DNA of 47,153 nt from Lysobacterales bacterium (lineage in GTDB: Bacteria; Pseudomonadota; Gammaproteobacteria; Xanthomonadales; Rhodanobacteraceae). The position numbers and the translations under genes are program-made. The first letter of the stretch is position 1. The number at the start of each line of letters is the position of its first letter. Shown here piece after piece: positions 1 through 12,537 of this stretch. The stretch is from NCBI GenBank assembly GCA_017305055.1, contig JAFKMZ010000060.1, positions 8,014 through 55,166 of the forward strand. The letters run 5' to 3'. The notes beneath the pieces were generated by a model. That model saw nothing but the letters and a program-made list of their open reading frames with translations. It was not told the DNA's origin and did no database searches.

Positions 1-730
1 CCACGTCGGGCAGGGTGATGCGCTCGCCACAGTCCAACGAACAGGCCATGGCGTCGGAATCCTCGGCCTGCACGCCGATCAGCCGGGTCTGTGGCGACAG
101 CGTCTTGATGTAGCTGGCCACTCCGGCGGCGAGGCCACCACCACCCACCGGCACGAACACGGCCTCGGGCGCGGCGCACTGGCGCAGGATTTCCACGCCC
201 ACGGTGGCCTGCCCGGCGATGACGTCCAGGTCGTCGAAGGGATGCACGAAGACCAGGCCGCGCTCGGCCTGGAGACGCGCGGCGGCGGCCTGGGCGTCGT
301 CGTAGGAATCGCCTTGCAGCACCACCTCGACGGCGTCGCCGCCGATGCGGCGTACCGCATCCACCTTCACCCGCGGCGCGGTCATCGGCATCACGATCAC
401 CGCATGCAGGCCGAGCCTGGCGGCGGCGAGCGCCACGCCCTGGGCGTGGTTGCCGGCGGAGGCGGCGACCACGCCGCGCGCGCGTTGCGCCGCGCCGAGC
501 TGTGCCATCTTGTTGTAGGCGCCGCGCAGCTTGAACGAGAACACACTTTGCAGGTCCTCACGCTTGAGCAGCACCCGGCGGCCCAGCCGGGCCGAGAGCA
601 GGGCAGCCGGCTGCAGCGGGGTTTCCTGCGCCACCTCGTACACCCGCGCGGACAGCGTGCGGCGCAGCAGGTCGAGGTCGTCGGGCACCTCGTCGGCCAC
701 GCCGGTGCTTTCGGCCAGCGCGACGCTCAT
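1..730 (-). CDS. ilvA: Threonine ammonia-lyase (threonine dehydratase), biosynthetic; C-terminus beyond window
   Basis: PLP enzyme that deaminates threonine to 2-oxobutanoate, the committed step to isoleucine. The 243 N-terminal residues are present; the rest lies outside the window. The PLP-lysine motif SFKLRGAYNKM lies near residue 60 and the phosphate-binding loop PVGGGGLAAG near residue 190. The start ATG (728-730) overlaps the ilvM stop in an ATGA, so translation is probably coupled. It is the last gene seen in the leu-ilv operon, and its substrate is made by the thr operon immediately upstream. Whether the C-terminal ACT-like regulatory domain is present cannot be seen. Confidence 0.95.
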   Translation of the reverse strand, partial: MSVALAESTGVADEVPDDLDLLRRTLSARVYEVAQETPLQPAALLSARLGRRVLLKREDLQSVFSFKLRGAYNKMAQLGAAQRARGVVAASAGNHAQGVALAAARLGLHAVIVMPMTAPRVKVDAVRRIGGDAVEVVLQGDSYDDAQAAAARLQAERGLVFVHPFDDLDVIAGQATVGVEILRQCAAPEAVFVPVGGGGLAAGVASYIKTLSPQTRLIGVQAEDSDAMACSLDCGERITLPDV

Positions 731-1002
731 GTGTGTGCGGCAAGCGTGGGTTGGCCGAAGCCAGCTGCCAGCGACAGGCTGCTGGCGTCGAGCACGTCGA
801 CGAGCTTGCGCAGCTGACGCAGGATCTGCTCCAGCGTGCCCTCGTCGCCGTGCAGCACGAGAGTGAGCTGCGAGATGGCCGGGTCGTGGGTCGCGGCCAC
901 GGTGAGCGCGTCGATGTTGACGTGGCGCGCGGCGAACAGTCCTGCCACGCGTACCAGCGCGCCGGATTCGTTCTGCAGCAGGATGGACAGGGTGTGCTTC
1001 AT
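727..1002 (-). CDS. ilvM: Acetolactate synthase small subunit, ACT domain
   Basis: A 91-residue protein made essentially of one ACT domain (starts MKHTLSILLQNESGALVRVA). It matches the short IlvM type rather than the roughly 160-residue IlvN/IlvH type. It should bind the large subunit encoded just upstream and set its activity or feedback sensitivity. I chose the ATG at 1000-1002 because GGAG lies 9 bases upstream and the ACT fold begins there; a longer frame upstream runs into repeat DNA. It overlaps ilvA by 4 bases. Confidence 0.9.
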   Translation of the reverse strand: MKHTLSILLQNESGALVRVAGLFAARHVNIDALTVAATHDPAISQLTLVLHGDEGTLEQILRQLRKLVDVLDASSLSLAAGFGQPTLAAHT

Positions 1003-1022
1003 GGCGGTGCTCCGGTGGTGAG

Positions 1023-1168
1023 CCCCTCTCCCTTTGGCGACGGAAGGAAGTCCCATTGCGGGAGAGGGGTGCCGACAGGCGGGTGAGGGTGCGGGCGGAG
1101 CGGGGGCGCCGTAGCTCGCCCGAACCCTCATCTGGTATTGCGGGCCACCTTCTCCCGAGGGGAGAAGG
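1023..1168. repeat. Composite inverted-repeat element between ilvG and ilvM
   Basis: Most of the 180-base gap between ilvG and ilvM is inverted repeats: arms 1023-1032 with 1060-1069 (CCCCTCTCCC/GGGAGAGGGG), a second imperfect pair centred on GGGTGAGGGT and ACCCTCAT (about 1080-1133), and a tight hairpin 1148-1156/1160-1168 (CCTTCTCCC, loop GAG). It looks like the dispersed intergenic palindromes common in Xanthomonadales. Inside the operon transcript it would form strong hairpins that could act in processing or mRNA stability. Confidence 0.75.
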
Positions 1169-1182
1169 GACAGATCAAGTGC

Positions 1183-3057
1183 CTAGAACATGTGCGTGGT
1201 CGAGGCCTCGGCGTCGACGGGTGCTGGCGTCTCGCGCGAGGGGATGAAGTCGCCGGTGATCATCTGCGCATAGCTGGCGCCGGGGCCGACCATGGGATAG
1301 ACGCCGGCGTCGGGGTCCACCACCACCTCGAGGAAGGCCGGACCGGCGACGGCGAGGAACTCGGCGACGGTGGCCTCGAGCTCCTCCTTGCGCTCGAGCC
1401 GGCGTGCCCAGACGATGCCGTCGGCCTGGGCGGCGCGCACGAAATCCTTGGTGTGCAGGTTCTTGTCGGTGGCGGAGTAGCGACTCTTGAAGAACAGCTT
1501 CTGCCACTGCCGCACCATGCCGTCGCCATGGTTGTTGAGCAGCACGATCTTCAGCGGCAGGCCGTAGGTGGCCACGGTTTCCAGCTCGCCGACATTCATG
1601 CGGATCGAGCCGTCGCCGTCGACGTCGATCACCGTCGCCTCGGGATGCGCGAACTGCGCGCCGATCGCCGCCGGCAGGCCAAAGCCCATCGTGCCCATCG
1701 AGCCCGAGGTGAGCCAGTGGCGAGGCTCGGCAAAGTCGAAGAACTGCGCCGACCACATCTGGTGCTGGCCCACGCCGGTGGCGATGATGGCGCGGCCGCA
1801 GGTCTGCCGGTTGATGGCCTCGATGACCGCCTGCGGCTGCAGCAGCGGGCTGGCGCGGTCGTAATTCATCGCATGCACGCGCTTGAGCCCGGCCAGGTGG
1901 GCGTGCCAGGCATCCAGTTGCAGGTTCACGCCGCGGCTGCGCGCATGCTGGGCGATGCGCTCCAGGCTGGCGCCGAGCTGGCCGACGTGGGCCCAGTCCA
2001 CCGCCTTGACCTTGCCCACCTCGGCCGGATCGATGTCGATCTGCGCGATGAACCGGGCACGTGGTGCGAACTTGTCCGGCACGCCGGCCACGCGGTCGTC
2101 GAAGCGCGCGCCCAGCACCAGCAGGAAGTCGCAGTCCTCCACCGCATAGTTGGCGTAGGCCGTGCCGTGCATGCCCAGCATGTGCAGGGCCAGCGGGTCA
2201 CGGGTATCCATCACTCCCAGGCCCATCAGCGAGGTGACCACGGGCAGGCCGAAGGCGCGTGAGAACGCGCGCAGCGCCGGTGCCGCACCGCTGGCCACCA
2301 CCCCGCCGCCGGCGTAGACCAGTGGGCGCCGGGCCTGGGCCAGGGCGTCGAGCAGGCGCCCGCAGTCGGCGTCGCCGAGCCGTGCGTGTTCCAATGCCTC
2401 GAGCCGCCGGCGGTAACCGGGGATCGGCAGGTGTCTGGCGCCATCAAAAGGCTGCACGATGTTTTGCACATTCTTTGGGATGTCCACCACCACCGGGCCG
2501 GGGCGGCCGCTGCGTGCCAGCTCGAACGCGGTGCGCAGCGTGGCTTCCAGCTGCGAGGCATCGGTGACCAGGAACACGTGCTTGGCGCACGCGCCCATGA
2601 TGTTGGCCACCGGCGCCTCCTGAAAGGCGTCGCTGCCCAGCGCGGCGGTGGGCACCTGGCCGCAGATCGCCACCATGGGGATCGAGTCGGCCAGCGCGTC
2701 GCGGATCGGCGTGACCAGGTTGGTGGCGCCGGGACCGGAGGTGACCACGGCCACGCCCACACCACCGGAGGCGCGTGCAAAGCCGGAGGCCATGAAACCC
2801 GCGCCCTGCTCGTTGGCCGGCACGATCAGGGCCAGCGGATCGCGGCCGTCGGCATCGCGGTGCATGGCGTTGTAGCGGAAGATGGCGTCGTAGACCGGCA
2901 GGATCGCGCCGCCGGAGTAGCCGAACAATACCTTCGTGCCCTCATCGGCGAGCACCTGTACCACGATGTCCGCACCGCTCATGGGCAGGCCGGCAAGCGG
3001 ATGCCGTGGGGCAGCGGGAACGGGAGTGGCGGCTGGGCTGGGCGTGAGGGTGGTCAC
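1183..3057 (-). CDS. ilvG: Acetolactate synthase large subunit
   Basis: ThDP-dependent enzyme that condenses two pyruvates to acetolactate, or pyruvate with 2-oxobutanoate to acetohydroxybutanoate. 624 residues. The N-terminal ThDP domain has the Glu of LADEGTKVLFGY followed by GYSGG (usually GYPGG). The central FAD-type domain is present, and the C-terminal ThDP/Mg motif runs from DGDGSIRMN to LLNNHGDG (about residues 485-515). I prefer the GTG at 3055-3057, which has AGGA 8 bases upstream; an in-frame TTG at 3075 would add six residues. The next gene, ilvM, encodes its ACT partner, 180 bases downstream. Confidence 0.95.
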   Translation of the reverse strand: MTTLTPSPAATPVPAAPRHPLAGLPMSGADIVVQVLADEGTKVLFGYSGGAILPVYDAIFRYNAMHRDADGRDPLALIVPANEQGAGFMASGFARASGGVGVAVVTSGPGATNLVTPIRDALADSIPMVAICGQVPTAALGSDAFQEAPVANIMGACAKHVFLVTDASQLEATLRTAFELARSGRPGPVVVDIPKNVQNIVQPFDGARHLPIPGYRRRLEALEHARLGDADCGRLLDALAQARRPLVYAGGGVVASGAAPALRAFSRAFGLPVVTSLMGLGVMDTRDPLALHMLGMHGTAYANYAVEDCDFLLVLGARFDDRVAGVPDKFAPRARFIAQIDIDPAEVGKVKAVDWAHVGQLGASLERIAQHARSRGVNLQLDAWHAHLAGLKRVHAMNYDRASPLLQPQAVIEAINRQTCGRAIIATGVGQHQMWSAQFFDFAEPRHWLTSGSMGTMGFGLPAAIGAQFAHPEATVIDVDGDGSIRMNVGELETVATYGLPLKIVLLNNHGDGMVRQWQKLFFKSRYSATDKNLHTKDFVRAAQADGIVWARRLERKEELEATVAEFLAVAGPAFLEVVVDPDAGVYPMVGPGASYAQMITGDFIPSRETPAPVDAEASTTHMF

Positions 3058-3127
3058 GATGGCTTCCTGGTGCAAAGGATGATGGCCGGGCGGTCGGCGT
3101 CGGCCGGCCCGGTCGGTGGCGGACGGG

Positions 3128-3469
3128 TCAGTTGCGGATCAGCTCGTGCTCGACGGCTGGATGCACGGGGACGCCGAACGTGGTGATGATGCGCAGGTCC
3201 TGTTCGAGCGTGGAAAAGCGCTGCCATTCGATGCCATTGACGTCGGTGTCGCTGGCGAAGCCCTCGGCCGTGTCGTCCTCGAAGCCGATCTGCACCACCT
3301 GGCCGGCATGTGCCGGATCCCTGCGGATGGAAAAATTGAGCTGGTCGGTGCGCCACATGGCGTAGGTGTCGATGACCACGGCCTGGGGCGGCTGCCCCAG
3401 GCGCGTGCTGTAGTCGGCGACGGAGGCGTCCATGTCGGCGACGGCCAGGGCGATGTGAAAGCGTTTCAT
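3128..3469 (-). CDS. VOC (glyoxalase/bleomycin-resistance fold) family protein
   Basis: 113 residues with the single betaalphabetabetabeta-type VOC pattern (MKRFHIALAVADMDASVADY at the N-terminus, a second half from about residue 60). The start has GAGGT 7-8 bases upstream. It lies 33 bases after ilvC and 70 bases before ilvG on the same strand, so it is co-transcribed with the branched-chain genes. VOC proteins are metal-dependent isomerases, dioxygenases or binding proteins; nothing in the sequence fixes the substrate. It is not a recognised step of the pathway. A role in handling reactive 2-oxo intermediates is only speculation. Confidence 0.8.
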   Translation of the reverse strand: MKRFHIALAVADMDASVADYSTRLGQPPQAVVIDTYAMWRTDQLNFSIRRDPAHAGQVVQIGFEDDTAEGFASDTDVNGIEWQRFSTLEQDLRIITTFGVPVHPAVEHELIRN

Positions 3470-3502
3470 GACGGTACCTCTTGGTGGTTGGTGGGGCGGG
3501 AC

Positions 3503-4516
3503 TCAGGCGACGGCTGGCTCCTGGTCGGTCGCGCCCGTGGCGGGGGCTGGCTCCGGATGCAGCCAGGTCATGCGGGCGCGCAGCTTGCGGCCGACCTGCT
3601 CCAGCGGGTGGTCGAGGTCGGCCTGTTTGTAGCGGCGGTAGTTCGGCAGCCCGGCGCGGTACTCGGCAATCCAGTTCTGGGCGAAGGTGCCGTCCTGGAT
3701 GTCCTTCAGCACCGCCTGCATGCGCTCCTTTACGCCGGCATCGATCACCCGCGGGCCGGAGACGTAGTCGCCGTACTGCGCGGTCTCGCTGACGTACTTG
3801 AGCATCTTCTCCACGCCGCCCTCGTAGAACAGGTCGACGATCAGCTTCAGCTCGTGGAAGACCTCGTAGTAGGCGATCTCCGGCTGGTAGCCGGCTTCCA
3901 CCAGGGTCTCGAAGCCGGCCTGCACCAGCGAGCTGGCACCGCCGCAGAGCACGGCCTGCTCGCCGAACAGGTCGGTCTCGGTCTCTTCCTTGAAATCGGT
4001 CTTGATCAGCATGGCGCGCGTGCCACCGATGCCGTCGGCGTAGGCGATGGCCTTTTCCTCGGCCTGGCCGGAGACGTCCTGGTACACCGCCCAGATGTCC
4101 GGCACGCCGCGACCGCGCTCGTACTCGCTGCGCACCAGCGCACCCGGGCCCTTGGGCGCAACGAGGATCACGTCAATGTCCTGGCGCGGCGTGATCTGCT
4201 TGAAGTGAATGTTGAAGCCGTGCGCGAACAGCAGGGCGGCGCCGGGCTTGATGTTGGGCGCGATGGCTTCGGTGTAGAGCGCAGGCTGCACCATGTCCGG
4301 GGTGAGCACGGCGACCAGGTCGGCGGTCTTGACCGCCTCGCCCGGCTCGGCGACGCGGAAGCCCTCGGCCTTCGCCTTGTGCCAGGACGGGCCGTCCTTG
4401 CGCAGACCGACCACGACGTCGAGGCCGGAATCGCGCAGGTTGAGGGCGTGGGCGCGGCCCTGGCTGCCGTAGCCGAGCACGGCGATGCGGGATGAAGCGA
4501 GGATGGTGTGGCTCAT
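3503..4516 (-). CDS. ilvC: Ketol-acid reductoisomerase, class I
   Basis: NADPH-dependent isomerisation and reduction of acetolactate/acetohydroxybutanoate to dihydroxy acids. 337 residues. The Rossmann motif [13 protein letters not shown] lies at residues 15-27, and the Mg-binding Asp/Glu of [11 protein letters not shown] at about D182 and E186. As in Xanthomonas enzymes, the N-terminus begins directly at the first beta-strand and lacks the YYDKDADL-type leader of many class I enzymes. The start ATG overlaps the ilvD stop (ATGA). A short Ala/Pro-rich tail closes the protein. Confidence 0.96.
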
Positions 4517-6228
4517 GCGGTGACTCCGTGGGTGGATGGTTGGGTGCGGATGTAGGTGGCCGGCAACGTGGCCTGGGTAACGGCGCCGTCGGAGGCCGAG
4601 GTGCACAGCAGCGCGTACTTGGCGAGTGCGCCACGCGTGACCTTGGGCGCCGCCGGTGTCCAGCTCTTGCGCCGGCCGGCGAGGTCGGCGGTGGTATTGA
4701 TCTCGCGGCTGAGCGCGTCGATCACCAGCTTGTCGCCGTCGCGGAGCAGGCCGATGGCGCCGCCGCGCGCGGCTTCCGGCGCGATGTGGCCGACCATGAA
4801 GCCGTGGGTGGCGCCGGAAAAGCGGCCGTCGGTGATCAGCGCCACGTCGTCGCCCAGGCCGCGGCCGATCAAGGCCGCGGTGACGCCGAGCATCTCGCGC
4901 ATGCCTGGTCCACCGGCCGGGCCTTCGTTGCGGATCACCACCACGTCGCCCTTTTTGATCCGGCCTTCCTGCACGGCGGCGAACGCGGCCTCCTCACTCT
5001 CGTAGACGCGGGCGCTGCCTTCGAAGCGGGTGCTGCCGTGGCCGGCCGAGTTCTTGCCAGGCATCTTCAGGATGCAGCCGTCCGGCGCCACGTTGCCGTA
5101 GAGGATCGAATAGCCGCCGTGGGCCTTCAGCGGCGCGGCCATGCTGGCGATCACCTGCTGGTTGTCGAAGCGCGGCGCGGCGGCGGCTTCCTCGAACAAG
5201 GTGCGGCCGGTGACGGTGGGCGCGTCCTCCAGCATGCCGGCGGCAATGAGCTCCTGCGCCACGCGCGCGGCGCCGCCCGCGTCGAACATCTCCACCGCGG
5301 TGTAACGGCCGGAGGGCAGCAGGTCGGCGATCACCGGAGTGGCTTCGGTGGCCGGCTGGAAATCCTCCAGCGACCACTCGGTGCCGGCCTCGCGCGCGAT
5401 CGCCAGCAGGTGCAGCACGGCGTTGGTGGAGCCGGCGGTGGCCGCCACCATGCGCGCGGTGTTGCGCAGCGCGGTGCGCGAGATCAGCGCGCGTGGCGTG
5501 CGCTTGCTGCGCAGGCAATCCATCACCAGCTCGCCGCAGCGGCGCGCGGCGGTGAGCTTGTCCGGGTGTGTTGCGGGGATATCGTTCAGGCCCATCGGCG
5601 ACAGGCCGAGCGTGGTCAGCACCATGGCCATGGTGTTGGCGGTGAACTGGCCGCCGCAGGCGCCGGCGCCGCCGCAGGCGTCGCATTCCACCGCGCGCAG
5701 TTCGGCGTCGTCGATCTTGCCCGCGCCGTGCGCGCCGACGGCCTCGAACACCTGCTGGATGGTGATCGGCCGGTTCTTGTGTAGGCCGTGGGCGATCGTG
5801 CCGCCGTACAGCGCCACGGCGGGGATGTCCAGCCGCGCCATGGCCATGGCGGCGGCGGGGATGGTCTTGTCGCAGCCGCACAGCACGACCATGGCGTCAC
5901 ACAGATGGCCTTCCACCGCCGCCTCGATGGAGTCGGTGATGATTTCGCGGCTGACCAGCGAATAGCGCATGCCCGGCGTGCCCATGGCGATGCCGTCAGT
6001 GACCGCGATGGTGTTGAACTCCACCGGCGTGCCGCCGGCGGCGCGGATGCCGTCCATCGCCGCCCGCGCCAGCTCGCGCAGGTTCAAGTTGCACGGCGAG
6101 ACGTCCGACCAGGTGTGCACCACCGCGACCAGCGGCTTGCGCAGCGCCTCGTCGTCCATGCCGGTGGCGCGCAGCATGGCGCGGGCGGGGGCGCGGTCGG
6201 GGCCGGCCTTGATCAGGTCACTACGCAT
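4513..6228 (-). CDS. ilvD: Dihydroxy-acid dehydratase
   Basis: Fe-S enzyme that dehydrates dihydroxy acids to the 2-oxo acid precursors of valine and isoleucine. 571 residues. The three cluster cysteines are visible: C46 in [11 protein letters not shown]119 in [12 protein letters not shown], and C191 in [11 protein letters not shown]; the neighbouring K121 is the usual carbamylated metal-binding lysine. The ATG at 6226-6228 has AGGA 8 bases upstream. It overlaps ilvC by 4 bases. The 150-base gap to leuB carries a long inverted repeat. Confidence 0.96.
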
Positions 6229-6259
6229 GTGGGTTCCTGTTGCTGGACTGTGGAAGGGT

Positions 6260-6361
6260 GCCCGCCCCGCGCTGCGACGTCGGCTTTGGTGCACTGGCAC
6301 GATGTCGGGGAGCCACCGCCGGCCTCCATGGCCAATGCCGCACGCGGTGCGCGGGGCGGGC
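6260..6361. repeat. 13-bp perfect inverted repeat in the leuB-ilvD gap
   Basis: GCCCGCCCCGCGC at 6260-6272 is the exact reverse complement of 6349-6361, with 76 bases between. It is the largest gap in the first part of the operon. In the minus-strand transcript the second arm is not followed by a U-run, so it is not a typical terminator. It may mark an mRNA processing or stability boundary between the leu and ilv halves. Confidence 0.6.
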
Positions 6362-6378
6362 AAAACTGGTTGCGGCGC

Positions 6379-7479
6379 TCAACCGCAGCATGGGTCGGTC
6401 AACTTCGTGACGGAGGTGTTTCCGGCAGCCTGGCTGGCGAGCGTGGCGAGCACCGCGTCGCGCACTGCGGCTGTGCCGGCCTGGCCGCCAAGGTCAGGCG
6501 TATAGGGACCCGCGCGCAGCACGTGCTCCACCGCAGCCTCGACGGCGGCGGCCTCGGCGTGCAGGTGCAGCGAGTGGCGCAGCAGCAGCGCGGTCGACAG
6601 GATCGCACCCACCGGATTGGCGAGGTCCTGGCCGGCCAGGTCGGGTGCCGAGCCGTGGATGGGCTCGTACAGGCCACGCCGGCCAGCGCCCAGCGAGGCC
6701 GACGGCATCAGCCCCAGCGAGCCGGCCAGGGCGGCGGCCTCGTCGGTGAGGATGTCGCCGAACAGGTTCTCGGTGACCACCACGTCGTAGCTGGCCGGCC
6801 GGGTCGGCAGCAGCATGGCCATCGAATCGACCAGCTGGTGCTCGACCCGCACCTCCGGGTAGTCGGGCGCGATGCGCTGCACCGTGGCGCGCCACAGGCG
6901 CGAGGTTTCCAGCACGTTGGCCTTGTCCACCGAGGTGAGCTGCCGGCGCCGGCCGCGGGCCAACTCGAAGGCCAGTCGCACCACGCGCTCGATCTCGGCC
7001 ACGGTGTAGCGGTATTCGTCGCTGGCGCTGTCGGCGTCGCGGGTCTTGGCGCCGAAATAGGCGCCGCCGGTGAGTTCGCGCACGAACAGGACATCGACGC
7101 CGGCAAGCCTGTCGTTCTTCAGCGGCGACAACCCGACCAGGGCCGGATGCACGCTGAGCGGGCGCAGGTTCGCGTACACGCCCAGCGCCTTGCGCAAGCC
7201 GAGCAGGCCCTGCTCCGGGCGTACCTTGGCGTCGGGGTCGGACCAGCGCGGGCCACCCACCGCACCGAGCAGCACGGCATCGGCGGCGAGGCAGGCCGTC
7301 TCGGTGGCGGCCGGCAGCGCTGTGCCGCTGGCCTCGATGGCGCAGCCGCCGATCAGTTGTTCCTCGAAGCTGAAATCGTGCCCGTGGCTGGCCGCCACGG
7401 CCTGCAGCACGGCGACTGCCGCCGCGGTGACCTCGGGACCGATGCCGTCCCCAGGCAGGGTGACGATATGCGCCTTCAT
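6379..7479 (-). CDS. leuB: 3-isopropylmalate dehydrogenase
   Basis: NAD-dependent oxidation and decarboxylation of 3-isopropylmalate in leucine synthesis. 366 residues. The N-terminus [14 protein letters not shown], the substrate loop [16 protein letters not shown], the catalytic lysine region [15 protein letters not shown], the metal-binding [13 protein letters not shown] and the NAD loop [12 protein letters not shown] are all intact. The start overlaps leuD by 4 bases. The C-terminus ends in a short CCG tail. Confidence 0.96.
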
Positions 7480-8120
7480 GTCCCGGCTCCAGTGGTAGGT
7501 GAGCGGCTTTCTTGAGCAGTGCGGCCATGGATGGCCGCTTCCCGACCCTCGCGTTCACGGATGAACGCATCGATCAAATCCCCCTGCTGCAGCAGGAACC
7601 CGAGCTGGTCGACGCCTTCCAGCAGGCAGTGCCTCGCGAACGGCTCGAGCCAGAAGCCGAATTCGCGGCCGTCGGGCAGCGTGATCGTCTCGGCCACGAC
7701 GTCGATGCCGAGCTCCACGCCGGGATGCGCCAGCAACCAGCGGTGTACGGGCTCGCCGAGCACGATCGCCAGCAGGCCGTTCTTCAGCGCGTTGTTGCGG
7801 AAGATGTCCGCGATCTCGGAGCTGATCACGGCCTGGATGCCGTAGTCCAGCAATGCCCACGGCGCGTGCTCGCGCGAGGAGCCGCAGCCGAAGTTGCGCC
7901 CGGCGACCAGGATCGAGCAGCCGGCGGCTTCCGGCCGGTTCAGCGCGAATTCGGGGTTCGCGCTCCCGTCCGGCAGCCAGCGCCAGTCGTTGAAGCAATG
8001 GCGGCCCAGGCCCTCGCGCGAGGTCGTGGTCAGGAAGCGGGCCGGGATGATGCGGTCGGTGTCGACGTTCTCGTCGGCCAGCACGGCGGTGCGCGAGCGG
8101 ATACGGGTGATCGGCTTCAT
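7476..8120 (-). CDS. leuD: 3-isopropylmalate dehydratase small subunit
   Basis: Swivelling-domain partner of LeuC in isopropylmalate isomerase. 214 residues, normal for the family. It carries [15 protein letters not shown] near residue 18, the conserved [17 protein letters not shown] loop and the NALKNGLL segment. The start at 8118-8120 overlaps the leuC stop in an ATGA, consistent with balanced synthesis of the two subunits. Confidence 0.96.
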
Positions 8121-9525
8121 GCGATTGCCTCCGCCAGGTACTCGCGCGGATCGGCGATGCGCCCGGCAATGGCCGACGCGGCAGCCGTCGCCGGACTGGC
8201 CAGCACGGTGCGCGCCCCCTTGCCCTGGCGGCCCTCGAAGTTGCGGTTGGAGGTGGAGACGACGAGCTGGCCGGGTTGCGCCTGGTCGCCGTTCATGGCG
8301 ATGCACATGGAGCAGCCGGGCAGGCGCCATTCCGCGCCGGCGGCGCGGAACACCTGGTCCAGGCCTTCGGCCTCGGCGTCGACGCGCACCTGCTCGGAAC
8401 CGGGCACGACCAGCATGCGCACCCCCGGCGCCAGCTTGCGTCCGCGCAGGATGCCGGCGGCGACGCGCAGGTCGGGCAGGCGCGAGTTCGTGCAGCTGCC
8501 CAGGAACACCACGTCGACCTGCATGCCCTGCATCGGCTGGCCGGGTGTCACCTGCATGTAATCCAGCGCGCGCTGCTCGACCGCGGTGCGCGCAGCCGGC
8601 ACCGGCGCGTTCATCGGGATCGCCATGCCGGGGTGGGTGCCGTAGGTGACGGTTGGCACGATGTCGCCTGCGTCGATCACCACCTCGCGGTCAAACGACG
8701 CACCGTCGTCGGTGACCAGCTGCTGCCAGCGCTCGACGGCCCGGTTCCAGTCCGCCCCCTTTGGCGCTCGCTCGCGGCCCTGCAGCCAGGCGAACGTGGT
8801 CTGGTCCGGCGCGATCATGCCGGCGCGCGCACCGGCCTCGATGGACATGTTGCACACCGTCATGCGCTCTTCCATCGACAGCGCGCGGATCGCCTCGCCG
8901 CGATACTCGATGACGTGGCCGGTGCCGCCGGCGACGCCGATCCTGCCGATGATGGCGAGGATCAGGTCCTTCGCCGCGACGCCGGCCGGCAGGCGGCCCT
9001 CGACGGTGATCGCCATCGTCTTCGGCTTGCGCTGCAGCAGGCACTGGGTGGCGAGCACGTGGCCGACCTCGGTGGTGCCGATGCCGAACGCGAGTGCGCC
9101 GAAGGCGCCGTGGGTGGAGGTGTGGCTGTCGCCGCAGACGATGGTCATGCCGGGCTGGGTGGCGCCCAGCTCGGGGCCGATGACGTGCACGATGCCGCGT
9201 TGCCTGCTGCCCCAACCGTGCAGCTCGACGCCGAACTGCACGCTGTTCGCCTCCAGCTGCGCGACCTGGGCCTTCGCGGCCGGATTCGTGTACGGTCGCT
9301 CACCGCCGGCGGCGGCCGGCAGGGTGGGTGTGGAGTGGTCCAGCGTCGCCAGGGCGCGGTCGGGCTGGCGCAGCTGCAGCTGGCGCGCGCGCAGTTCGTC
9401 GAAGGCCTGCGGCGAGGTCACCTCGTGCAGCAGGTGCAGGTCGATGTACAGCACGGCCGGGGTCTGCGGCGTTTCCCGGGTGACGAGGTGCGCGTCCCAG
9501 ACCTTCTCGAACAGGGTGCGCGGGT

Positions 9526-9529
<4 letters not shown>
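8117..9529 (-). CDS. leuC: 3-isopropylmalate dehydratase large subunit
   Basis: Aconitase-family [4Fe-4S] subunit that isomerises 2- to 3-isopropylmalate with LeuD. 470 residues. Cluster cysteines are at about 346 ([11 protein letters not shown]) and at 406 and 409 ([10 protein letters not shown]), the same spacing as in E. coli LeuC. The motif [19 protein letters not shown] is intact. The start overlaps leuA by 4 bases. Confidence 0.97.
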
Positions 9530-10761
<1,232 letters not shown>

Positions 10762-10782
10762 GGATTTTGACCTTGCCGAGCG

Positions 10783-10818
10783 CAAAAAAAACCCCGCATC
10801 CGTTGCCGGGTGCGGGGT
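10783..10818 (-). terminator. leu-ilv attenuator terminator
   Basis: On the minus strand the hairpin ACCCCGCA...TGCGGGGT (10811-10818 with 10791-10798) has a stem of 8 pairs, extended by 2 more after one mismatch, and a 6-base loop. Seven to eight U residues follow (10784-10791). It lies between the leader peptide and leuA, so it is a textbook rho-independent attenuator rather than an end-of-operon terminator. Confidence 0.92.
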
Positions 10819-10872
10819 CTTGGGAGTCTTTTCAGGTTTTTCTCTACCTGGACACAGCCCTCAGCCCGCACC
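10809..10872 (-). promoter_or_regulatory. Antiterminator pairing region of the leu-ilv attenuator
   Basis: The last codons of the leader peptide contain GGUGCGGG (10872 down to 10865), exactly complementary to CCCGCACC (10816 down to 10809), the 5' arm of the terminator. A ribosome stalled on the Leu/Val codons would leave GGUGCGGG free, allowing an antiterminator. A ribosome at the stop codon would cover it and allow termination. A competing GGAGG (10871-10875) to CCUCC (10902-10906) pairing within the leader could serve as the pause structure. Confidence 0.75.
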
Positions 10873-10998
10873 TCCGCTGGTAATGAGGAGTACGAGTACA
10901 AGGAGGGCAAGCAGCGTGCCACGCAGTTGCAACAAGCCAGCAACCGTCAGCGGACGGTAGTCCTTGGCGATGCTGTAGTGGCTGTTGCGCTGCGACAT
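10861..10998 (-). CDS. leuL: Branched-chain leader peptide of the leu-ilv operon
   Basis: A 45-codon frame ending 100 bases before leuA. Residues 29-39 read LLALLVLVLLI: seven Leu, two Val and one Ile in eleven codons, matching the products of the operon. A U-rich terminator and a perfectly matched antiterminator segment follow. The start ATG (10996-10998) has no Shine-Dalgarno sequence; it lies 9 bases after a predicted -10 box, so the mRNA should have almost no 5' UTR. The hydrophobic run could also suggest a small membrane protein, but position and RNA structures strongly favour a leader peptide. Confidence 0.87.
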   Translation of the reverse strand: MSQRNSHYSIAKDYRPLTVAGLLQLRGTLLALLVLVLLITSGGAG

Positions 10999-11007
10999 GA
11001 AGGCGAC

Positions 11008-11035
11008 GTTATCGTGCCCCGCGGAGGCCTGTCAA
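11008..11035 (-). promoter_or_regulatory. Predicted leu-ilv operon promoter
   Basis: Minus-strand TTGACA (11030-11035), a 16-base spacer and GATAAC (11008-11013). The -35 box is perfect and the -10 box matches 4 of 6. An A/T-rich stretch lies just upstream (about 11036-11070). Transcription should begin at about 11001-10999, next to the leader ATG. Confidence 0.75.
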
Positions 11036-11086
11036 GCGTTTTTTCCAACTTTCTTCGATTCCTTCCGATTTGTACGGTCGGACGTC

Positions 11087-11116
11087 CAGATGGCCACATG
11101 TTCAGATGGCCATATG
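11087..11116. promoter_or_regulatory. Direct repeat upstream of the leu-ilv promoter
   Basis: CAGATGGCCACATG (11087-11100) and CAGATGGCCATATG (11103-11116) match at 13 of 14 positions and are 16 bases apart, centred about 65-80 bases upstream of the -35 box. This is a plausible activator binding site on one face of the helix. No regulator can be named. Confidence 0.4.
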
Positions 11117-11118
11117 AC

Positions 11119-11150
11119 CCAGGAGCGCGGTCAAGGAGCAGAGCTCCTGG
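11119..11150 (-). terminator. Inverted repeat downstream of thrC
   Basis: CCAGGAGC (11119-11126) pairs with GCTCCTGG (11143-11150) across 16 bases, just beyond the thrC stop at 11176. There is no U-run after it on the minus strand, so it is at best a weak or Rho-assisted end of the thr operon. Confidence 0.35.
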
Positions 11151-11175
11151 AATGCCCCCCCGGGCCCGGCGACGC

Positions 11176-12537
11176 TCAGTGCAGCCCGACAGCGGCACGC
11201 GTGCCGAGCAGCCACTTCCGCAGGGCGCCCTCACTGGCGGCCAGGGGATCGGCGTGGGACGGCCTGGCCAGCATGTCCGCCAGGACCTCCGGCACTGCCA
11301 CCGGATGGCCGATGAGCGGCTCCACCACGCTCGCGAACTTGGCCGCGTGGGCAGTGGCCACCACCACCCATGGCGCCTGGTCGCCTTGGGCGCGCAGGCG
11401 GTCGAGCACGCACATGGCGGTGGCGGTGTGCGGACAGAAAACCTCGCCGTGCATGCGCCCGTGCTGCTCGAGCGTGGCGCGGATCGCCGCGTCGTCGACT
11501 GTCTCCGCGTACAGCGCGCGGCGCAGCGCCGACTCGTCCGGAAACGTCCAGCGCAGCCGCTCGAAGTTGCTTGGCGCGCCCACGTCCATGGCGTTGGCCA
11601 GGGTGCGGAGCGCCGGGCGCGGACGGTAATCCGCGCCGGCGAAGTACTCCGCAAGCGTGGCATTGGCATTGCAGGCCAGGCGCACCGTGCCGATGGGCAG
11701 CCCCATGCCGCGCGCCCACAGGCAGGCCATGGCATTGCCGAGGTTGCCGGTGGGGACGATGAAGTTCAGCGCCGTGCCATGCGCGCGCCACCAGCCCAGC
11801 GCGGCGTGCGCGTAATAACTCATCTGCGGCAGGAGGCGGCCCAGGCTGATGCTGTTGGCCGAGGACATGGGCACCGCAGCCTGCAGCGAGGTGTCGTTCA
11901 ATGCCGCCTTCACCAGGCGCTGGCAGTCATCGAAACGACCATCCACGCGCAGCGCACGGACGTTGTCACCAAAGCAGCCGAGCTGGTGGGCCTGGCGCGG
12001 GGACACCCGGCCATCCGGGTACAGGATGGCCACTTCGACCCCCGGCCGGCCGTGAAAGGCCGCACCGACGGCGGCCCCGGTGTCGCCGGAGGTCGCGACC
12101 AGGATGGTCAGCGGCCGGGCATCGGCACGCGGCAGGCGGGCGAGGCAGGCGGCGAGGAAGCGGGCGCCGAAGTCCTTGAACGCCGCGGTCGGGCCATGGA
12201 ACAGCTCCAGCATCCAACTGTCCGGGTGCGCCGGCAACGGGCGCAACGGCGCCCCGAACGTGAACGCCTCGGCGCAAATCGCCGGCAGCCCGTCGGCCAG
12301 CACGTCCCCGGCGAAGAACGGCGCGAGCAGCGTGCACGCGGTGTCGGCCAGGCTGCCGCGCAGGTCGAATGTCGCCGGGTCCACCGTCGGCAGCGTCGTG
12401 GGTACGTACAAGCCGCCATCCGGGGCGAGGCCGGTAGCGATTGCCTGGCTGAGCGGCACGGCCGGGGAGGCCCCTCGCGTACTGACGCAGCAGCCCACGG
12501 GCAGGCTTCCACGGGTATCGGAGACGGTACCGGTCAT
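11176..12537 (-). CDS. thrC: Threonine synthase
   Basis: PLP enzyme that converts O-phosphohomoserine to threonine. 453 residues. The N-terminal [20 protein letters not shown] and [10 protein letters not shown] are typical. The PLP lysine is in [13 protein letters not shown], followed by [17 protein letters not shown] and the [15 protein letters not shown] segment. The start overlaps thrB by 4 bases (ATGA). It is the last gene of the thr operon; the leu-ilv promoter lies 140-180 bases downstream. Confidence 0.96.

Follow-up and report, generated by a model that had tools for sequence, protein, structure and literature searches.

A probable ribosome-mediated attenuator of predicted leaderless form ahead of the branched-chain amino acid operon of Xanthomonadales

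From its sequence and from comparison with relatives, we conclude that the segment ahead of leuA in the 47,153-nt stretch of DNA analyzed here (the window) is very probably a ribosome-mediated transcription attenuator of an operon for branched-chain amino acids, with a leader mRNA predicted to be leaderless. The draft genome that contains the window comprises 3.5 Mb in 108 contigs, and all elements of the attenuator and the operon lie on the minus strand of the window. A leader ORF of 45 codons with LLALLVLVLLI at residues 29-39, which the sequence-only reading had described, was confirmed at 10998..10861 (45 codons plus stop; product MSQRNSHYSIAKDYRPLTVAGLLQLRGTLLALLVLVLLITSGGAG) by its translation and by family comparison. 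Control codons 29-39 (10882..10914) read CTG CTT GCC CTC CTT GTA CTC GTA CTC CTC ATT. Within the last codons of the leader lies the antiterminator strand GGTGCGGG (GGUGCGGG in RNA; 10865..10872), and its complementarity to the terminator 5′ arm, noticed in that same reading, holds for CCCGCACC at 10809..10816. The intrinsic terminator hairpin (10784..10818) is U-rich as first reported, with a 3′ arm TGCGGGG at 10798-10792 followed by eight T at 10791-10784. RNA folding recovered this hairpin, including one C-A mismatch, and the whole window leader folded with an MFE z of -2.53 (1 of 200 shuffles equally low). The leader terminator is absent from a mechanical pattern scan on the minus strand, which lists no minus-strand terminator in 1-11200.

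Behind the leader lie leuA, leuC, leuD, leuB, ilvD, ilvC, a 113-aa ORF, ilvG, ilvM, and ilvA. The proposal of a ten-gene leu-ilv operon thus stands in its gene count: nine genes had been named, and the 113-aa ORF is the tenth. The first gene, leuA (9526..10761), starts at 10761, 22 nt past the last T of the terminator, and encodes a 2-isopropylmalate synthase of 411 aa that lacked the LeuA_dimer regulatory domain in a domain search. It is followed by leuC (8117..9529), leuD (7476..8120), leuB (6379..7479), an ilvD open frame (4513..6363; probable gene start 6228), an ilvC open frame (3503..4606; probable gene start near 4516), the 113-aa ORF in the ilvC/ilvG interval (3128..3469; no Pfam match), ilvG for the acetolactate synthase large subunit (1183..3075), an ilvM-like small subunit with an ACT domain (727..1131), and the first part of ilvA (2..730), which extends past the window edge. 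The ilvA frame is broken near the first bases of the window (window 1-730, minus strand, continued in L251 7055-8743), with PALP positions 6-211 in one frame and positions 216-295 plus the regulatory domain in another. Because the assembly is a draft, an assembly error and a mutation are indistinguishable here. We also note that the allosteric LeuA_dimer domain was found nowhere in the window’s genome (97% complete) and was present in 14 of 14 control genomes. Among relatives, it was present in L083 and absent from L141, and 21 of 123 loci, including one named Luteibacter (L019), had a short LeuA as judged by length. Upstream of the leader, thrC lies on the same strand in the window and in many relatives.

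To define the samples, a leuA search of 197 family genomes gave a match in 194, with weak paralogs counted in, and the nearest named LeuA relatives among the matches listed were Rhodanobacter, Dyella, and Luteibacter. Our family set comprised 110 loci, namely, the window, 29 loci, and 80 more places taken from part of the leuA match list. The leader was found 5′ of leuA in 109 of these 110 loci (window included), and both the Leu/Val/Ile run and the complementary segments, on whose conservation in relatives the sequence-only reading had staked its claim, were kept. Ten family loci that fell below the first threshold were read by eye, and nine of them had the leader. The exception was L184, where leuA directly follows an ilvA-like frame and no leader stands there; its genome (G086) has a model match elsewhere, at a place not listed, with E 1.5e-9. 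The 109 family leaders together with 24 of the 80 loci in a list of LeuA relatives made 133 leaders, 123 of them distinct; the other 56 loci of that list fell below the leader threshold and mostly belonged to other orders or had leuA inside an operon. Adding 20 leaders from other families of the order to the 123 gave a set of 143, in which L241 is identical to L025. Leader length ranged from 36 to 57 aa, and the middle of the peptide was variable.

As in known attenuators, the short ORF holds a run of codons for the amino acids that the operon makes. Across the 143 leaders, the control block consisted of 39.5% Leu, 14.3% Val, and 11.0% Ile codons (64.8% summed), and their spelling was unusual. 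Leucine was written CTT (49%) or CTC (47%), jointly 96%, and CTG in only 3%, compared to 65% CTG, 3% CTT, and 23% CTC in leuA of the 123 leuA-side loci and 70% CTG in the window’s operon genes. Valine was GTA in 76% of cases vs. 5% in leuA of the same 123 loci and 3% in the window’s operon genes, and isoleucine was ATT in 94% vs. 7% in both. By contrast, threonine was ACC in 74% of the control block, near the 63% of leuA and the 69% of the operon genes, and alanine likewise stayed near the genes. For Leu, Val, and Ile, the run thus avoids the usual synonymous codons; for Thr and Ala, it does not. Codon use in the N-terminal part of the leader was intermediate (CTG 52%, ATC 76%, but GTT 23% vs. 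3%).

An intrinsic terminator lies between the ORF and the first gene, and its 5′ arm is shared with a conserved alternative pairing to the leader. We counted this pairing without an alignment, from the stop codon on one side and from the end of the arm’s C run on the other. Leader positions -2 to -9 and arm positions 2 to 9 formed Watson-Crick pairs at 8 of 8 places in 105 of the 123 distinct leaders, with seven pairs in 12, six in 3, and five in 3. Positions 5-9 made 589 pairs, compared to a maximum of 583 in 2000 shuffles. In the 143-leader set, the final 24 nt of the ORF and the 5′-arm region shared a longest Watson-Crick run of at least 8 in 124 leaders vs. 0.9% of shuffled tails, and a column-based count on 36 leaders found 95.3% of cells paired vs. 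at most 63.1% when the strands were slid. At arm position 7, the leader pair was intact in 114 of 123 and the terminator pair in 84; at position 8, the leader pair was intact in 115 (plus 6 G-U) and the terminator pair in 47. Because the terminator’s own pair was lost here while the leader pair stayed intact, the arm appears to be kept for the leader and not for the terminator only.

Compensatory changes in the 10809-10816/10865-10872 pairing, proposed at the outset as a check, were found in modest number. Three cells of the antiterminator helix had changed on both sides among the 36 leaders, and two such pairs were reached by 18 of 500 shuffles; few changes are seen because the strand hardly varies. 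Among the 123 leaders, U-A became A-U in four and C-G became U-A in one. Other families added more: in L223 (GGCGCGGGG with CCCCGCGCC; run of 12) and L238 (GGTAGCGGG with CCCGCTACC; run of 9), strand and arm were altered jointly. In L163, L165, and L169, complementarity was kept through a shifted run, GGAGG(TG) with (CA)CCTCC. The terminator stem also covaried, with 19 cells changed on both sides vs. 8.0 after shuffling.

We next placed a ribosome on the leaders, with an assumed footprint that extends 15 nt to either side of the first P-site base, and counted 134 leaders (9 of the 143 lacked a 7-nt run and were excluded). With the last Leu, Val, or Ile codon in the A site, this assumed footprint covered only 0-1 nt of the antiterminator strand in 116 of 134 leaders, and in 124 of 134, that last control codon was Ile. 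With the ribosome at the stop codon, the same footprint covered the whole strand in 124 of 134. The earlier suggestion that stalling would expose the antiterminator and that reaching the stop would hide it is therefore consistent with the geometry. Folding agreed with this as well. When the RNA was left free beginning 21 nt ahead of the stop and ended before the 3′ arm, the antiterminator formed in 109 of 123 leaders; with the ribosome at the stop, it formed in 0 of 123, and all 123 complete transcripts formed the terminator. Whatever part of the complete transcript was masked, the terminator was favored in 119 to 123 of 123 (119 with the control region masked), so antitermination would have to be kinetic, occurring during RNA synthesis. 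Known attenuators likewise act while the RNA is being made. We note that the antiterminator also formed in 62 of 123 untranslated partial transcripts, which counts against the attenuator reading.

Promoter spacing predicts that the leader mRNA is leaderless. In the window, a predicted -35 hexamer TTGACA lies at 11030..11035 and a -10-like hexamer TAACGT at 11006..11011, 7 nt 5′ of the ATG; the latter was assigned by its position in the family pattern, and an automatic choice of -10 may differ for this sequence. A TTGACA-like hexamer stood 29-32 nt 5′ of an in-frame ATG in 143 of 143 leaders from several families, when placement was left free over 24-39 nt and choices at 30 nt or with ATG were slightly favored. 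The match was 6/6 in 127 leaders, 5/6 in 14, and 3/6 in 2 (the identical L025 and L241). In 134 of 141 leaders, the best -10-like hexamer ended 6-8 nt 5′ of the ATG; TAGGGT, TACGGT, and TACGTT were the commonest forms, and at least 118 of 141 fitted TAnnnT. The base at -1 was C in 93% of the 141, with +1 taken as the A of the ATG. This tight spacing of TTGACA, -10, and ATG can hardly accommodate a Shine-Dalgarno site, and transcription would be expected to start on or beside the ATG. The first 39 nt were also little structured, with a mean MFE of -4.26 vs. -7.20 at the leuA start (53 loci).

The first codons of the leader are rich in A and C, and the N-terminus is conserved across much of the order, typically as M-(S/T/P)-QRNSH (codons 2-7 are 10978-10995 on the minus strand of the window). 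Among the 143 leaders, R4 was found in 126, Q3 in 109, and H7 in 88. Plain attenuation does not need this conservation, which may reflect a function in loading ribosomes or a peptide that acts in trans. Further upstream, tandem met-box-like 8-mers, mostly 78-116 nt 5′ of the leader ATG, were enriched relative to a downstream control (for example, GGACGTCTGGACGTCT in L135), and the window’s genome encodes MetJ. The best such tandem in the window (11080-11095) is weak, with 11 of 16 letters and a score reached by 3 of 143 control stretches.

Codons 14-19 of the leader (10942..10959) probably form a hairpin within the ORF, as suggested by a consensus fold and by covariation, although the covariation statistics were mixed. 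In an alignment of 60 of the 67 distinct 45-codon leaders, 78.1% of cells were paired vs. at most 51.7% when slid, 44 cells had changed on both sides vs. 16.3 after shuffling (0 of 500 shuffles), and the covariation score was 0.310 vs. 0.149 shuffled (0 of 500) and at most 0.172 when slid. On the contrary side, 103 of 500 shuffles reached the 6 double-changed pairs and 407 of 500 the further pair types; of all the measures, these two are the least affected by relatedness. The hairpin is a candidate pause site for RNA polymerase.

Several other pairings were considered. We rejected a conserved long-range hairpin that would join the first codons to codons 20-28: single leaders do fold it (codon-permutation z, mean -1.81 over 60 leaders), but the consensus of 67 equal-length leaders keeps the hairpin of codons 14-19 only. 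Upstream pairing of segment 2 was seen in 111 of 123 full transcripts folded naked, but we dropped a conserved 1:2 pairing between GGAG and the CUCC of the control codons because many relatives lack CUCC. Between the stop codon and the terminator, RNA folding gave a small hairpin CAGGT...ACCTG (10833..10850; mean z -1.42 over 58 loci, vs. mononucleotide shuffles). By eye, GGGCA past the stop might pair with TGCCC past the T run.

Taken together, we propose the following mechanism. Transcription would begin on the A of the leader ATG or right next to it, and ribosomes would consequently load directly on the 5′ end, without a Shine-Dalgarno site. The in-ORF hairpin may delay RNA polymerase, giving a ribosome time to load and follow. 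When charged Leu, Val, and Ile tRNA is ample, the ribosome would reach the stop codon and cover GGUGCGGG; the terminator (5′ arm CCCCGCA, 3′ arm UGCGGGG) would then form, ending transcription 22 nt before leuA. If any of the three amino acids ran short, the ribosome would wait in the unusually written codons and leave GGUGCGGG free to pair with the terminator 5′ arm before the 3′ arm is made. The polymerase would then continue through leuACDB-ilvDC-orf113-ilvGM-ilvA, presumably in a single transcript.

To determine how far the element reaches, we built a covariance model from 36 leaders. It matched 318 of 398 genomes of the order at E ≤0.01, with short terminator-only matches included. Within the window’s family, 118 of 125 genomes matched at E ≤1e-8, a count that takes listing order as kinship and in which 60 non-matching genomes were not displayed; the seven family genomes with no strong model match had leuA hits only at paralog level, no better than 7.6e-8. 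Twenty chosen matches among those listed, nearly all from other families, were read, and each had a leader of the same build. It preceded ilvD in 13, ilvC in 4, leuA in 2, and an ilvG-like frame in 1; more ilv and leu genes followed for as far as each stretch extended. This reach across the order with a changing first gene, like the predicted leaderless start, the codon bias, and the in-ORF hairpin, was not part of the sequence-only reading. In a search of the window’s own genome for further copies, the 7 remaining matches were weak (E 0.008 to 6.6), and one was the same terminator on the opposite strand. At class level, 25 of 274 genomes matched at E ≤0.001; three of them lie within the order, and most others were partial or weak. 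Of five out-of-order loci read by eye (L254, L256, L257, L258, and L260), the whole arrangement was seen in L260 only. That locus has a short Leu/Val-rich ORF, TTGACA 31 nt 5′ of its ATG, a terminator, and then an ilvC-like frame. L257 has a short ORF rich in branched-chain codons with AGGAG upstream and a terminator behind it.

Other explanations fit parts of these data. Attenuation could operate on an mRNA that is not leaderless, with transcription starting further upstream and the TTGACA-ATG spacing having another cause, and we consider this unlikely. The -10 boxes do depart from TATAAT in their commonest forms (TAGGGT, TACGGT, TACGTT), a generic promoter scan found no promoter at the leader, and 25 of 143 leaders carry a 4/6 match to AGGAGG 5′ of the ATG, none better, in a stretch that overlaps the presumed -10. 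However, an upstream start sits poorly with a 29-32 nt spacing kept in 143 leaders of several families (141 with at least 5/6 of TTGACA), with the C at -1 in 93%, with a -10-like box 6-8 nt from the ATG in 134 of 141, and with the little-structured first 39 nt (MFE -4.26 vs. -7.20, 53 loci). It is less probable still that the leader chiefly serves to make a functional small membrane peptide, or a terminated RNA acting in trans, and attenuates only secondarily. Such a role would account for the conserved N-terminus (R4, Q3, and H7 in 126, 109, and 88 of 143), and Sinorhizobium meliloti peTrpL, which also comes from a leaderless leader and is reported to act in trans (PMC7298713), provides a precedent. 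Yet the A/C-rich N-terminus may instead serve ribosome loading, the middle of the peptide varies, its length ranges over 36-57 aa, the leader precedes a branched-chain gene in the loci read, and the codon bias touches Leu, Val, and Ile, not Thr and Ala.

Control of the terminator by a protein or ligand (a T-box, a riboswitch, or an RNA-binding protein), with the ORF incidental, seems very improbable. A terminator with alternative pairings is compatible with any attenuator, but T-boxes, riboswitches, and every other Rfam 15 family gave 0 matches at gathering score in the window, and the control-codon block, the codon bias, and the footprint geometry all point to translation. We give hardly any weight to an ordinary terminator of upstream thr genes next to a chance ORF. 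The position of thrC upstream on the same strand, in the window and many relatives, would suit it, and thrC is also upstream in L224 and L231, where the cassette precedes ilvD. Against it, the cassette precedes ilvD or ilvC in other families, for which the sequence covered extended only ~400 nt upstream. Conservation of the ORF, the promoter spacing, and the leader-arm pairing also argues against a mere thr terminator. Ribosome-mediated attenuation from a leaderless mRNA thus remains the reading that we favor.

A wider reading, which we hold tentatively and at slightly less than even chance, is that these leaders form an order-wide, ancestral class of leaderless attenuators in gammaproteobacteria. 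In this class, the transcription start would coincide with the start codon, the A/C-rich first codons would be the loading site, and the in-ORF hairpin would synchronize polymerase and ribosome. One composite Leu/Val/Ile sensor, written in unusual codons, would act as the master switch for the entire branched-chain pathway. It would keep its position as the genes downstream are reshuffled, and in some lineages it would assume control when LeuA loses its leucine feedback domain. Where LeuA lacks LeuA_dimer, the attenuator may be the sole leucine control. The leaders, 116 of 134 of which share one footprint geometry (with the footprint size assumed), offer a natural series bearing on how a ribosome with no Shine-Dalgarno site keeps step with RNA polymerase, and on how codon choice tunes an amino acid sensor. 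No Rfam 15 family scored up to its cut-off in the window, so that the annotation of the Xanthomonadales branched-chain operon would gain a new element. In the parts of the literature that our search covered (including PMC2965389, PMC1262725, PMC7298713, PMC10272879, PMC11857589, and PMC3771888; the 2004 survey of Vitreschak et al. lies outside that scope), we found no description of the element for Xanthomonadales, and we do not claim priority.

Attenuators of this general kind are well known, and those with leader peptides in ilv and leu operons are textbook examples. The attenuators of Escherichia coli ilvGMEDA, ilvBN, and leuABCD resemble ours in their control codons, alternative hairpins, and terminator before the first gene. 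Their leader ORFs start from Shine-Dalgarno sites, however, and ilv and leu have separate leaders. The Rfam model of the E. coli leu leader (Leu_leader, RF00512) aligned with the same stretch and strand over its full length (1-148 of 148), but at 16.2 bits vs. a cut-off of 50 (E 0.92). A closer parallel in its start is the Corynebacterium glutamicum ilvBNC attenuator, whose transcription is reported to start a single nucleotide away from the start codon of the leader (PMC11857589). As described there and in PMC10272879, that leader also has an Ile/Val/Leu-rich peptide, no reported ribosome binding site, and a terminator set against an antiterminator, but it encodes a 15-aa peptide, belongs to another phylum, and controls ilvBNC. 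In a comparison by description and not by sequence, the window leader differs in its 45 aa, in an antiterminator strand within the last codons, and in having both leu and ilv genes behind one leader. The S. meliloti trpL leader RNA likewise begins with the ATG of its leader peptide, although that case concerns tryptophan, a 14-aa peptide, an alphaproteobacterium, and a reported role in trans (PMC7298713). The ilvB-II, ilvB-OMG, and ilvB motifs also place ORFs with many branched-chain codons ahead of ilv genes, but they come from other lineages and were set beside the window by description rather than by structure (PMC10272879). Against this background, the traits that would be the element’s own are its predicted leaderless start, its composite sensor, and its pathway-wide reach.
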